From an uncultured SAR86 cluster bacterium (GTDB taxonomy: Bacteria > Pseudomonadota > Gammaproteobacteria > Magnimaribacterales > AG-339-G14), in assembly GCA_902562135.1 (NCBI GenBank), contig CACESE010000006.1, forward strand, positions 1-64,000: a stretch of 64,000 bases of DNA, written 5' to 3'. Shown here piece after piece: positions 30,493 to 49,191 of the stretch. The notes below the pieces were generated by a model, which was not told the origin of the DNA, did not search any database, and was given only the letters and a program-made list of their open reading frames with translations. A program made the translations under genes and the position numbers. The number at the start of each line of letters is the position of its first letter. Positions within the stretch are counted from its first letter, which is position 1.

Positions 30493-30521
30493 TTGTAATT
30501 TTTGGCAGTTTGTACTAGAAT
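30493..30521 (+). promoter_or_regulatory. Candidate sigma-70 promoter TTGTAA-N17-TAGAAT
   Basis: -35 at 30493-30498, 17-bp spacer, -10 at 30516-30521, predicted start just before the structured leader at about 30531. Confidence 0.5.
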
Positions 30522-30530
30522 TGCACAGTA

Positions 30531-30665
30531 ATCGTTCATCTTTTGCACTATTTAAATGCATGAGACGGAAGTAGGAAGATAGGAAAACCTCTTTCTTCCA
30601 ATGGGAGGAAAGGTTAGCAAGTACCGAATGCGGGAACGAGACCGAATATCTAACGAAGGAACGCG
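30531..30665 (+). promoter_or_regulatory. Candidate glutamine riboswitch (glnA/Downstream-peptide class)
   Basis: CGTTC (30533-30537) pairs with GAACG (30659-30663); conserved-looking GACGGAAGTAGG after the second hairpin and CGAAGGAACGCG at the 3' side; upstream of a small ORF, as is typical of Downstream-peptide RNAs. Identified from memory of the consensus, no covariance search. Confidence 0.72.
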
Positions 30666-30677
30666 TTGAGAAGGGTG

Positions 30678-30697
30678 TACGTCGGGAGACGTATGTA
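30678..30697 (+). other. Hairpin between riboswitch core and ribosome-binding site
   Basis: TACGTC-GGGA-GACGTA (30679-30694), 4-nt loop, about 22 nt upstream of the GGAG Shine-Dalgarno. Confidence 0.5.
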
Positions 30698-30727
30698 CGA
30701 AATCGATACGAAAACTGGAGGCACGAT

Positions 30728-30892
30728 ATGGCTACTTACTATAGAGGCGTTAAAGTAAACTCTGATAACTCTAATTCTGAAGGAAGCACTTCAAAGGGTG
30801 GAATTTACAGAGGCATTAAACACGACGCATTACAAAACAATAAGTCAGCTAAAAATCCTGGGATTTATCGCGGGACTAAAACAGCTGCATGA
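30728..30892 (+). CDS. 54-aa YRG-repeat small protein (possibly DUF4278-like), not in supplied ORF track
   Basis: ATG 30728 to TGA 30890-30892: MATYYRGVKVNSDNSNSEGSTSKGGIYRGIKHDALQNNKSAKNPGIYRGTKTAA; GGAG Shine-Dalgarno 7 nt upstream; three YRGxK repeats; followed by strong terminator. Confidence 0.87.
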   Translation: MATYYRGVKVNSDNSNSEGSTSKGGIYRGIKHDALQNNKSAKNPGIYRGTKTAA

Positions 30893-30913
30893 CTTTGTTT
30901 TAAGTTAAAAATT

Positions 30914-30943
30914 AGGGAGGCTTAACAGCCTCCCTTTTTTTTT
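30914..30943 (+). terminator. Intrinsic terminator of YRG-peptide transcript
   Basis: AGGGAGGC-TTAACA-GCCTCCCT perfect 8-bp stem followed by T-run. Confidence 0.93.
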
Positions 30944-30963
30944 GATAAATTAATCAGAAAAAA

Positions 30964-43351: not shown

Positions 43352-43702
43352 ATGAAACTTATGTCAATTGTTGTGAAACCATCAAAAGTCGAAGCTGTTA
43401 AAAGTGCTATTTCATCTGTAGGTGTAAGCGGCGCCACTATCTTAGATGCAAGAGGTTTCGGTTCAACAAAGGGGCACACAGACTCTTATAGGGGAGCTCA
43501 ATATCAAGTGGATACAAATCCCAAAGCTATGTTGCAGGTCGCATGTAAGGACGAGAGTGTTAATGACATTATAGAAGCGGTTCGTAGTGTAGCTAATACC
43601 AACACTATTGGGGATGGAAAAATTTTCATCACAGAACTTTTAGATGTAATACGCATTAGAACTGGTGAAACCGGTGAAGGTGCAATTAACGGAGAATATT
43701 AA
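43352..43702 (+). CDS. glnK: P-II family nitrogen regulatory protein (GlnK)
   Basis: T-loop KGHTDSYRGAQYQVD, C-terminal TGETGEGAI; adjacent to amtB. Confidence 0.94.
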   Translation: MKLMSIVVKPSKVEAVKSAISSVGVSGATILDARGFGSTKGHTDSYRGAQYQVDTNPKAMLQVACKDESVNDIIEAVRSVANTNTIGDGKIFITELLDVIRIRTGETGEGAINGEY

Positions 43703-44940
43703 TGGAAGAAATTAAATTTTCATTAGACACATTCTATGCTCTTATGTCGGGAGCTTTAGTTATGTGGATGGCTGCTGGTTTCACAATGTTGGAAGCTGGT
43801 TTAGTTCAGAAGAAGGATGTCTCTGAGATCGTTACTAAGAATTTAGGATTGTATTCAATCGCATGTGTCATGTATTTGGCTTGTGGATTTATTCTTATGT
43901 ATCCTGGCTCAGCATTGATTGACGGAATTCTTCCAGGAATAGGAACTTCATGGTGGTTATCTACCGCAGATCCTATAGAAGAGATTGGTATACCTTATGG
44001 TATGGATTATTCACAACAGGCTGATTTCTTTTTCCAAGTTGTTTTCGTTGCAACAGCTATGTCGATTGTTTCAGGAGCGGTTGCAGGTAGAATGAAACTA
44101 TTACCTTTTTATTTATTTGCTGTAATTCTTACTGCATTTATTTACCCAATCCAAGGTTACTGGAACTGGGGTGGTGGTTTCTTAAGTTCAGGTGGTTATT
44201 CTGACTACGCTGGATCAGGAACAGTCCACTTATGCGGTGCTGCTGCAGCGTTAGCTGTTGTTACAGTTTTAGGTCCTAGAAAAGGCAAATATAATGCTGA
44301 CGGTTCTGTAAACCCTATGCCTGGATCAAATATTCCATTAGCTGCTTTAGGAGCTTGGATTCTTTGGTTAGGTTGGTTCGGATTTAATGGCGGTTCAGAG
44401 CTTGTAGTTAGTTCTGAAGCTAGTGCAATTGCTGTAAGTCAAGTATTTTTAAATACTAACATGGCAGCTGCTGGTGGAGTAATCGCTGCATTATTAACAA
44501 GTTTATTTGCAACAGGAAAAATGGATGTCACCATGGCAATTAATGGTGCCATTGCCGGTCTAGTTGCAATCACAGCAGGTCCAAGTGCTCCTACTGGCGG
44601 AGAAGCCGTATTCATCGGTGCAGCTGGTGGTGTGTTGGTTTACTTCTCAATTCTTTTCTTTGATAAGACATTGAAAGTTGATGACCCTGTTGGCGCAATT
44701 TCAGCTCACGGAACTGTAGGTATTTTAGGTGTAATGGTTGTTCCTTTCACTTCAGATGCTTCTTTCCTATGGCAGTTATATGGCGTACTAGCTATCGGTG
44801 GATTCACTTACATAGCAAGTTTAATAGTTACATTTATTATAAATATAATTATGCCAATCAGAGCAACTGATGAAGAGCAAGATGCAGGTCTTGATTCTAC
44901 AGAAGTTGGGGTATCAGCTTACCCAGAATTCTCAGATTAA
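43702..44940 (+). CDS. amtB: Ammonium transporter
   Basis: AGFTMLEAGLVQKKDV, GSGTVHLCGAAAAL, WFGFNGGSEL, ISAHGTVGILG motifs. Confidence 0.95.
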   Translation: MEEIKFSLDTFYALMSGALVMWMAAGFTMLEAGLVQKKDVSEIVTKNLGLYSIACVMYLACGFILMYPGSALIDGILPGIGTSWWLSTADPIEEIGIPYGMDYSQQADFFFQVVFVATAMSIVSGAVAGRMKLLPFYLFAVILTAFIYPIQGYWNWGGGFLSSGGYSDYAGSGTVHLCGAAAALAVVTVLGPRKGKYNADGSVNPMPGSNIPLAALGAWILWLGWFGFNGGSELVVSSEASAIAVSQVFLNTNMAAAGGVIAALLTSLFATGKMDVTMAINGAIAGLVAITAGPSAPTGGEAVFIGAAGGVLVYFSILFFDKTLKVDDPVGAISAHGTVGILGVMVVPFTSDASFLWQLYGVLAIGGFTYIASLIVTFIINIIMPIRATDEEQDAGLDSTEVGVSAYPEFSD

Positions 44941-48489: not shown

Positions 48490-49191
48490 ATGGAATATGT
48501 TCTAGCTACCAACGATTATGTTGGTATTTCTTTTTGGCTAGCCACAGCTATAATGCTTGCTTCTACTGTATTTTTCTTTATTGAAAGATCTGACGTTAAA
48601 GGTAAGTGGAAAACTTCTTTGACTGTTGCAGGTTTAGTTACTGGTATAGCTTTTTGGCATTATTTGTATATGAGAGACGTATGGGTAATGGTTGGTGATA
48701 CACCTACTGTCTACCGATACATCGATTGGTTAATTACCGTACCTCTACAAATAATTGAATTTTATTTAGTTATTGCTGCTGTTACAGCAATTAGCGCTGC
48801 CATCTTTTGGAAGCTTTTAACTGCATCAATTGTGATGCTTGTTTTTGGTTATCTCGGAGAAACTGGATTAATGGATGTAACTCTTGGTTGGGTGATCGGA
48901 ATGATTGCTTGGCTATACATCATTTATGAAATCTTCTTTGGAGAAACTGCTAAAGCTAATGCCGGAAGTGGAAATGCAGCCAGTCAACAAGCATTTACAA
49001 CAATTAAATGGATTGTGACTGTAGGTTGGGCAATATACCCATTGGGATATGCAATTGGATATTTCGGTGGCGGAGTAGATGCTAATTCATTGAATATTAT
49101 CTACAACTTGGCTGACTTAATTAACAAAACAGCATTTGGTTTAGCTATCTGGGCTGCTGCTAAAGCAGATTCAGAAAGTTCCTACGCTTAA
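48490..49191 (+). CDS. Proteorhodopsin (blue-absorbing type proton pump predicted)
   Basis: RYIDWLITVPLQIIEFYLV (Asp97/Thr101/Glu108 equivalents; Gln at the 105 equivalent), Schiff-base lysine in NLADLINKTAFGLAIW, 7 TM. Confidence 0.97.
   Translation: MEYVLATNDYVGISFWLATAIMLASTVFFFIERSDVKGKWKTSLTVAGLVTGIAFWHYLYMRDVWVMVGDTPTVYRYIDWLITVPLQIIEFYLVIAAVTAISAAIFWKLLTASIVMLVFGYLGETGLMDVTLGWVIGMIAWLYIIYEIFFGETAKANAGSGNAASQQAFTTIKWIVTVGWAIYPLGYAIGYFGGGVDANSLNIIYNLADLINKTAFGLAIWAAAKADSESSYA

Follow-up and report, generated by a model that had tools for sequence, protein, structure and literature searches.

A very probable glutamine riboswitch with a three-way junction nested in its P3 helix precedes a small YRG-repeat gene in SAR86 bacteria and T4-like phages

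INTRODUCTION

Between era and recO of a SAR86-cluster gammaproteobacterium lies a short unit in which a structured leader precedes a 54-aa open reading frame. What does this leader sense, and what is the long arm that extends one of its helices? A sequence-only reading of the window (i.e., the whole stretch of DNA analyzed, 64,000 nt) had related the leader to the glnA and Downstream-peptide RNAs, and had inferred that a heterotrophic, proteorhodopsin-bearing gammaproteobacterium uses a glutamine-sensing RNA to control a small regulatory peptide. The glnA motif was described in 2010 as cyanobacterial and marine, with tandem copies mentioned (PMC2864571). A 2018 review regarded glutamine riboswitches as restricted to cyanobacteria, and assigned the aptamers found upstream of GS, PII, and Amt genes to environmental sequences from strains that are uncultured (PMC6316151).

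The reading that we favor, and hold to be very likely, is that a type 1 glutamine riboswitch with an additional nested domain controls a stand-alone 54-aa YRG gene in SAR86. The aptamer identity rests on covariance-model matches, covariation, gene linkage, and the distribution across hosts and phages, while the ligand, the ON direction, the expression platform, the target of the protein, and the role of the nested domain are inferred.

RESULTS

Identity of the aptamer

Inspection of the window sequence located CGTTCA at 30533 to 30538, GACGGAAGTAGG at 30564 to 30575, and CGAAGGAACGCG at 30654 to 30665, together with a P1 helix closed by CGUUC and GAACG (Table 1); the sequence-only reading had reported these motifs and this helix, all in the right places. 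A cmscan search against Rfam matched RF01739 (i.e., the type 1, or glnA, family) at 30531 to 30667 with 37.0 bits, compared with a gathering score of 35 (E = 2.8e-6 for 801 nt; 2.2e-4 for the whole window). The invariant core of the family is present in full (CGUUCA, CGGAAGUA, and GAAGGAACG), P3 covaries (GAU/AUC, AAC/GUU, GAC/GUC, and AAA/UUU), P2 still folds although its sequence varies, and the RNA is positioned in the 5' leader of a DUF4278-type gene in a nitrogen-related setting. Covariation is uninformative on P1, since this helix is invariant. An opposition of AGUA (30570 to 30573) and GAA (30655 to 30657) in a loop-E-like arrangement is inferred from sequence alone. At the window leader, RF01704 (Downstream-peptide) gave no match even at E 10, and a type 2 identity was rejected on this ground. 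The kinship proposed earlier therefore held for glnA and failed for Downstream-peptide RNAs. Two checks that had been suggested with it were positive, i.e., a covariance-model search (RF01739 above the curated cut-off) and a search for covariation (found in P3 and the inner helices, with P1 invariant).

TABLE 1 Features of the unit between era and recO (positions in the window)
Feature	Position	Strand	Support
Sigma-70-like promoter, TTGTAA-N17-TAGAAT	30493..30521	+	-10-like box recurs in orthologues
Type 1 (glnA) glutamine riboswitch aptamer (very probable), nested domain in P3	30531..30667	+	RF01739, 37.0 bits; orthologues, 35-46
P1 5' strand, CGUUC	30533..30537	+	Invariant
P2 hairpin	30539..30565	+	Variable sequence, folds in nearly all members
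Aptamer core, CGGAAGUA	30566..30573	+	Invariant
P3 5' strand, AGAU	30577..30580	+	Pairs with AUCU 30648-30651; covaries
Nested domain, AGG-AAAACC-UC-[P3a]-GG-UU-AGCAAGUACC-[P3b]-GGGAACGAGACCGAAU	30581..30647	+	Conserved core, 98 distinct RNAs
P3a hairpin, CC-UC-UUUC... / ...GAAA-GG	30588..30613	+	14 outer-stem combinations
P3b, AGUA-CC / GG-GAA, loop-E-like motif	30620..30636	+	Helix changes, AGUA/GAA constant
Segments AAAACCUC, AGCAAGUA, and GAACGAGACCGA, which a second ligand, if any, would be predicted to protect			
P1 3' strand, GAACG	30659..30663	+	Invariant
Third conserved leader element, P4, CGU 30664-30666 / ACG 30708-30710	30664..30710	+	P4 covaries
Hairpin inside P4, ACGUC-GGGA-GACGU	30679-30692	+	
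Shine-Dalgarno, GGAGG	30717..30721	+	
54-aa DUF4278-type protein, three YRG repeats	30728..30892	+	PF14105, E 5.2e-5; relatives
Intrinsic terminator	30914..30944	+	Conserved in the window's genus

A chance resemblance, or a structured leader of some unrelated kind without a glutamine aptamer, would be the simplest alternative. Single-sequence folding is indeed unremarkable (shuffled versions of the whole window leader fold just as well; z, -0.63), and some Rfam scans fall below the cut-off: stricter-filter scans of whole genomes misalign the window RNA because of the insert in P3 (23.4 bits) and report no match at an E value of 0.001 or less. Against this alternative, RF01739 was matched upstream of the YRG gene in 18 of 18 orthologous loci scanned (35 to 46 bits, up to 45.8; the loci were drawn from the 34 YRG-positive genomes among 61 relatives), as well as in phages and in a Halieaceae-labelled contig, and sister lineages carry canonical aptamers of 60 to 71 bits upstream of GS and GOGAT genes. 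The alternative is all but excluded. By these computational tests, the window RNA is very likely a type 1 glutamine riboswitch; ligand binding and switching are inferred, with no binding or expression data.

A conserved three-way junction nested in P3

The long P3 arm proved to be a three-way junction, nested within the aptamer and strictly conserved, that is absent from Rfam (no match of the domain to any of 4,227 families). Its length had been singled out as unusual in the sequence-only reading; this held, and the arm is conserved, but that reading had missed that the arm is a separate conserved domain common to phages. Viral P3 lengths are bimodal, i.e., 8 to 16 nt in 104 distinct canonical aptamers and at least 48 nt in the others; the nested domain comprises approximately 75 nt. 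The order of its elements is P3, AGG or CUG, AAAACC-UC, P3a, GG, AGC(A/U)AGUA, P3b, GAACGAGACCGA, and P3.

Three helices (P3, P3a, and P3b) vary and yet stay paired across 98 distinct RNAs (61 viral and 37 bacterial). The 14 different combinations of the P3a outer stem are nearly all complementary, and P3b occurs as CC/GG, GG/CC, AG/CU, and GC/GC with AGUA/GAA unchanged. Every cell pairs in a 27-sequence alignment, which has a covariation score of 0.230 (shuffles, 0.089 ± 0.011; slid structures, 0.02 to 0.07), while sliding the strands lowers pairing to 21 to 58%. The core of the insert is identical even where the YRG protein is only approximately 40% identical, and the leader is far better conserved than the protein.

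The domain was never found on its own, outside a glutamine aptamer, with either of two patterns. With a core pattern in which the aptamer was not required, 38 loci were retrieved from genomes and 31 from viruses; once the 30 orthologous loci are added, all of these (99 of 99) lie inside a glutamine aptamer. A looser viral pattern yielded 115 matches, five of which were GC-rich chance matches, the remainder being in glutamine aptamers or cut at contig ends.

Phages also carry a second kind of P3 insert (type A; 48 to 63 nt), arranged as AGCCGACGCGGAACG-GAU-CGUUCAU-[P2]-ACGCAAACGCCGACU (viral loci L234-L347, e.g., L235, L250, and L271). We infer a resemblance to a circularly permuted or rearranged glutamine aptamer.

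Linkage of the inserts to YRG genes

The nested domain (type B) precedes a YRG gene in 59 of 59 typable viral leaders, compared with 18 of 121 canonical viral aptamers (Fisher's test, 7e-30, uncorrected for relatedness). Type A viral inserts likewise precede YRG genes (about 80 of 83, of which 74 have at least two motifs). This strict linkage bears on what the domain might do, for which we considered two sensing or binding roles.

According to the first, the domain would serve as an additional aptamer that binds glutamine or another nitrogen or carbon metabolite such as 2-oxoglutarate, making the whole a composite RNA with two inputs or a cooperative one. The nested junction has long invariant unpaired segments of the sort that typically form ligand pockets and, like the glutamine aptamer, contains a loop-E-like motif; in addition, the DUF4278 gene of SAR86 genus g14 (L501) has two tandem canonical aptamers upstream and the phage type A insert is aptamer-like, suggesting that a pair of sensing units may be frequent at YRG genes. 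On the other side, the domain matches nothing in Rfam, is never found alone, unlike most aptamers, and 13 of 15 canonical viral YRG leaders have a single aptamer. There is no ligand evidence, and we consider this role less likely than not. A rule of two aptamers for all YRG genes was rejected on the basis of the same 13 single-aptamer leaders.

According to the second, the domain is a binding site for the YRG protein or another protein and provides autoregulatory feedback. The strict linkage just described speaks for this, as does the nature of the protein, a small, K/R-rich polypeptide for which three beta hairpins are predicted with low confidence. However, DUF4278 is known from a protein-binding GS inactivating factor and not from an RNA binder (PMC6316151), and common descent of the RNA and its gene could also explain the linkage. 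Without binding data, such feedback is no more than a possibility.

Distribution among SAR86, phages, and other bacteria

A covariance model of the whole RNA matched 43 of 204 SAR86 genomes (103 to 137 bits), including all seven genomes of the window's genus and 33 of the 40 of its family (counted by hand from the search table), and none outside SAR86 in 369 sampled genomes of the class. Among 38 contigs with the insert pattern, 36 were titled SAR86 or matched genomes of the same set of relatives. The closest relatives are SAR86-cluster genomes, and SAR86 is assigned to the Gammaproteobacteria; the host previously described as gammaproteobacterial and proteorhodopsin bearing was confirmed as a SAR86-cluster bacterium with a rhodopsin gene. 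The other two of the 38 contigs include the only non-SAR86 bacterial case found, which belongs to a Halieaceae-labelled MAG (L068; CAJXDE010000026.1); here amt and PII genes lie a few kilobases from the nested riboswitch and its YRG gene, which encodes 59 aa. The second of them, 884 nt long with a Flavobacteriales label (L064; NZWA01000048.1), carries an RNA identical to that of phage contigs L087 and L092 and is probably a misbinned phage fragment.

The viral contigs are T4-like (i.e., they encode the major head protein, tail sheath, head protease, DNA polymerase, and ribonucleotide reductase), and among named phages they are closest to Pelagibacter phage HTVC008M, Methylophilales phage Melnitz, and cyanophages. 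Because some SAR86 copies are nearer to a phage copy (85% protein identity) than to that of the window (42%), exchange between T4-like phages and SAR86 is likely. A phage-like YRG gene with its leader is present near glnK-amtB at four loci (L026, L027, L029, and L030, compared with L090) whose relatives have their own version, an apparent host-phage replacement.

The YRG protein

The 54-aa protein aligned with PF14105 over residues 1 to 50 (E = 5.2e-5; 24.0 bits, compared with a curated cut-off of 25.3), and a phage homologue scored 29.7 bits. The open reading frame and Shine-Dalgarno sequence claimed previously were upheld, given this DUF4278-type match and the retention of the protein in 34 of 61 related genomes. 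A Pfam search at E 10 detected no second domain, such as the GS-inactivating one expected of an IF17 (GifB) protein. AlphaFold2 predicted three short YRG beta hairpins with low confidence (pTM, 0.21), too weak for a fold search, and we found no solved DUF4278 structures. Homologues of the window or phage YRG protein were not found in cultured phages.

Elsewhere in the Gammaproteobacteria, DUF4278 gave only two doubtful matches in 369 genomes, both without the core aptamer motifs. One DUF4278 match in a gammaproteobacterial MAG (L232; G135) is accompanied on its contig by cyanobacterial GCGATCGC-type sequences (7% contamination) and is probably a contaminant.

The PII protein of the window (43352-43702) retains a YRG-containing T-loop, GHTDSYRGAQY, despite the missing GlnD. 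Since the repeats of the 54-aa protein look similar to this T-loop, mimicry of it is conceivable, if speculative.

Nitrogen-related gene context

The window also contains a rhodopsin gene (48490-49191), glnK-amtB (43352-44940, with a marine-type ammonium transporter), era, and recO. The YRG unit lies between era and recO in the window's genus, and in sister genera it adjoins glnK-amtB or is approximately 2 kb away. Canonical glutamine aptamers are common in other SAR86 genomes, often in tandem. They precede genes for GlnII glutamine synthetase (L497 and L503), GltB, the large subunit of glutamate synthase (L493, L506, and L509), and a Gcw_chp porin (L494, L496, L507, and L508), and likewise small open reading frames.

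GlnD and GlnE are the usual protein glutamine sensors. GlnE was found in none of 61 relatives and GlnD in none of 37 genomes of the window's family; these are incomplete MAGs, yet the absence is uniform. PII and GlnII are present in this family, and no type I GS was found in the window's genome. A GlnII-type glutamine synthetase gene is located beside an NtrB-like kinase gene in that genome (L104:2361-3341; G000 contig 1).

Remainder of the transcription unit and expression platform

The strong terminator that had been claimed was confirmed: at 30914 to 30935 it belongs to a class of matches that exceeds chance (2 found; 0.2 expected). Support for the promoter is weaker, since matches of this type alone are near chance (2 found; 1.6 expected), although a -10-like box lies at the corresponding spot in the leaders of relatives. 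The transcription start is inferred to lie near 30528, at the 5' edge of P1. P4 shows several covariants (CGU/ACG, CUA/UAG, CUU/AAG, and CAUAG/CUAUG). This third element lies just 5' of the Shine-Dalgarno sequence; it is common to SAR86 and many phage leaders and absent from several phage leaders. A spacer (ACGAU, 30723 to 30727) is able to pair with AUCGU at 30531 to 30535, with weak support.

No common platform masking the ribosome-binding site emerged: when the aptamer was imposed in folding, Shine-Dalgarno accessibility rose in only 41% of 96 leaders. Pairing between the P1 5' arm and the start region is stronger than background (means, -5.7 and -6.0 kcal/mol, compared with -3.5 and -4.0 for 79 gene starts from the window and related loci). 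As a platform it is nevertheless only a possibility, given that mismatched sequence pairs do equally well and that full-leader ensembles show no consistent unmasking.

A third role for the nested domain would be that of a mere structural strut or of a switchable anti-Shine-Dalgarno, in which the invariant CCUC would pair with GGAGG as long as no ligand is bound. Such pairing appears to be present in the minimum-energy fold calculated for the window leader (pairing probability, 0.2 to 0.6 in the genus), and the complementarity of the P1 arm to the start region points the same way. However, the pairing averages 0.11 over the 96 leaders, the imposed aptamer does not consistently free the Shine-Dalgarno sequence, and the other invariant nested segments are left unexplained. 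We regard this role as unlikely; CCUC as a general anti-Shine-Dalgarno was rejected, being seen in the window fold and not across the leaders.

DISCUSSION

Proposed mechanism

Under the preferred reading, i.e., a type 1 glutamine riboswitch with a nested domain, transcription would begin at the edge of P1, and P1, P2, and P3 would fold around L-glutamine. In cyanobacteria, the genes downstream of glutamine aptamers are mainly DUF4278 genes, and the response to glutamine is activation (PMC6316151). By analogy with the cyanobacterial DUF4278 and gifB riboswitches, glutamine binding is predicted to raise translation of the YRG protein, which would accumulate under nitrogen plenty as a signal of nitrogen sufficiency and may act on nitrogen assimilation through GlnII, PII/Amt, or a partner. 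The nested domain may tune or gate the switch for YRG genes, as a second sensor or as a site for a binding partner (e.g., the YRG protein). The earlier proposal that glutamine sensing controls a small regulatory peptide is thus supported, with glutamine binding and the regulatory role of the peptide inferred.

Comparison with known systems

The window RNA shares the P1-P2-P3 junction and the CGUUCA / CGGAAGUA / GAAGGAACG core with type 1 RNAs of RF01739 and, as in cyanobacteria, precedes a gene of the DUF4278 type (PMC6316151 and PMC2864571). It differs from them in carrying a nested domain of approximately 75 nt in a P3 that spans 8 to 16 nt in the 104 canonical viral aptamers, and in its host, a heterotrophic gammaproteobacterium. 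Type 2 RNAs (RF01704) of marine organisms also precede short open reading frames, several of which are DUF4278-like, but the window has no covariance-model match to them. Cyanobacterial gifB, which encodes IF17, likewise has a type 1 aptamer before a DUF4278-domain gene in a nitrogen-assimilation context; in contrast, the SAR86 protein comprises the DUF4278-like part only, without a detected second domain, and the SAR86 GS is of the GlnII type.

Glutamine riboswitches are also carried by Methylophilales phage Melnitz and by pelagiphages (PMC9004378), T4-like phages whose hosts are streamlined marine heterotrophs and which are closely related to the phage contigs analyzed here. Those riboswitches were reported with a tmRNA gene, and in the isolates that were checked, neither the nested domain nor a YRG gene was found at the corresponding position. 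As in tandem riboswitches, the window leader possibly has two sensing units, but the second would be nested in a helix of the first and not placed after it. Our literature search found no report of SAR86 glutamine riboswitches or of the nested domain; Klahn et al. 2018 and supplements were outside this search, so priority is not fully excluded.

Implications for SAR86 and its phages

Since such aptamers lie upstream of genes for glutamine synthetase, glutamate synthase, and DUF4278 proteins in SAR86, this lineage of uncultured ocean bacteria is a likely host of the environmental sequences noted in the 2018 review. The nested domain is a candidate new RNA element that is common to phages and bacteria and tied to one gene family. 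A bolder reading, which remains possible, is that an undescribed second aptamer within a helix of the first, together with canonical switches on GS and GOGAT genes, constitutes RNA-based nitrogen sensing in SAR86 and its phages that replaces the missing GlnD and GlnE. Within the window's family, RNA may perform part of the glutamine sensing that usually belongs to GlnD.
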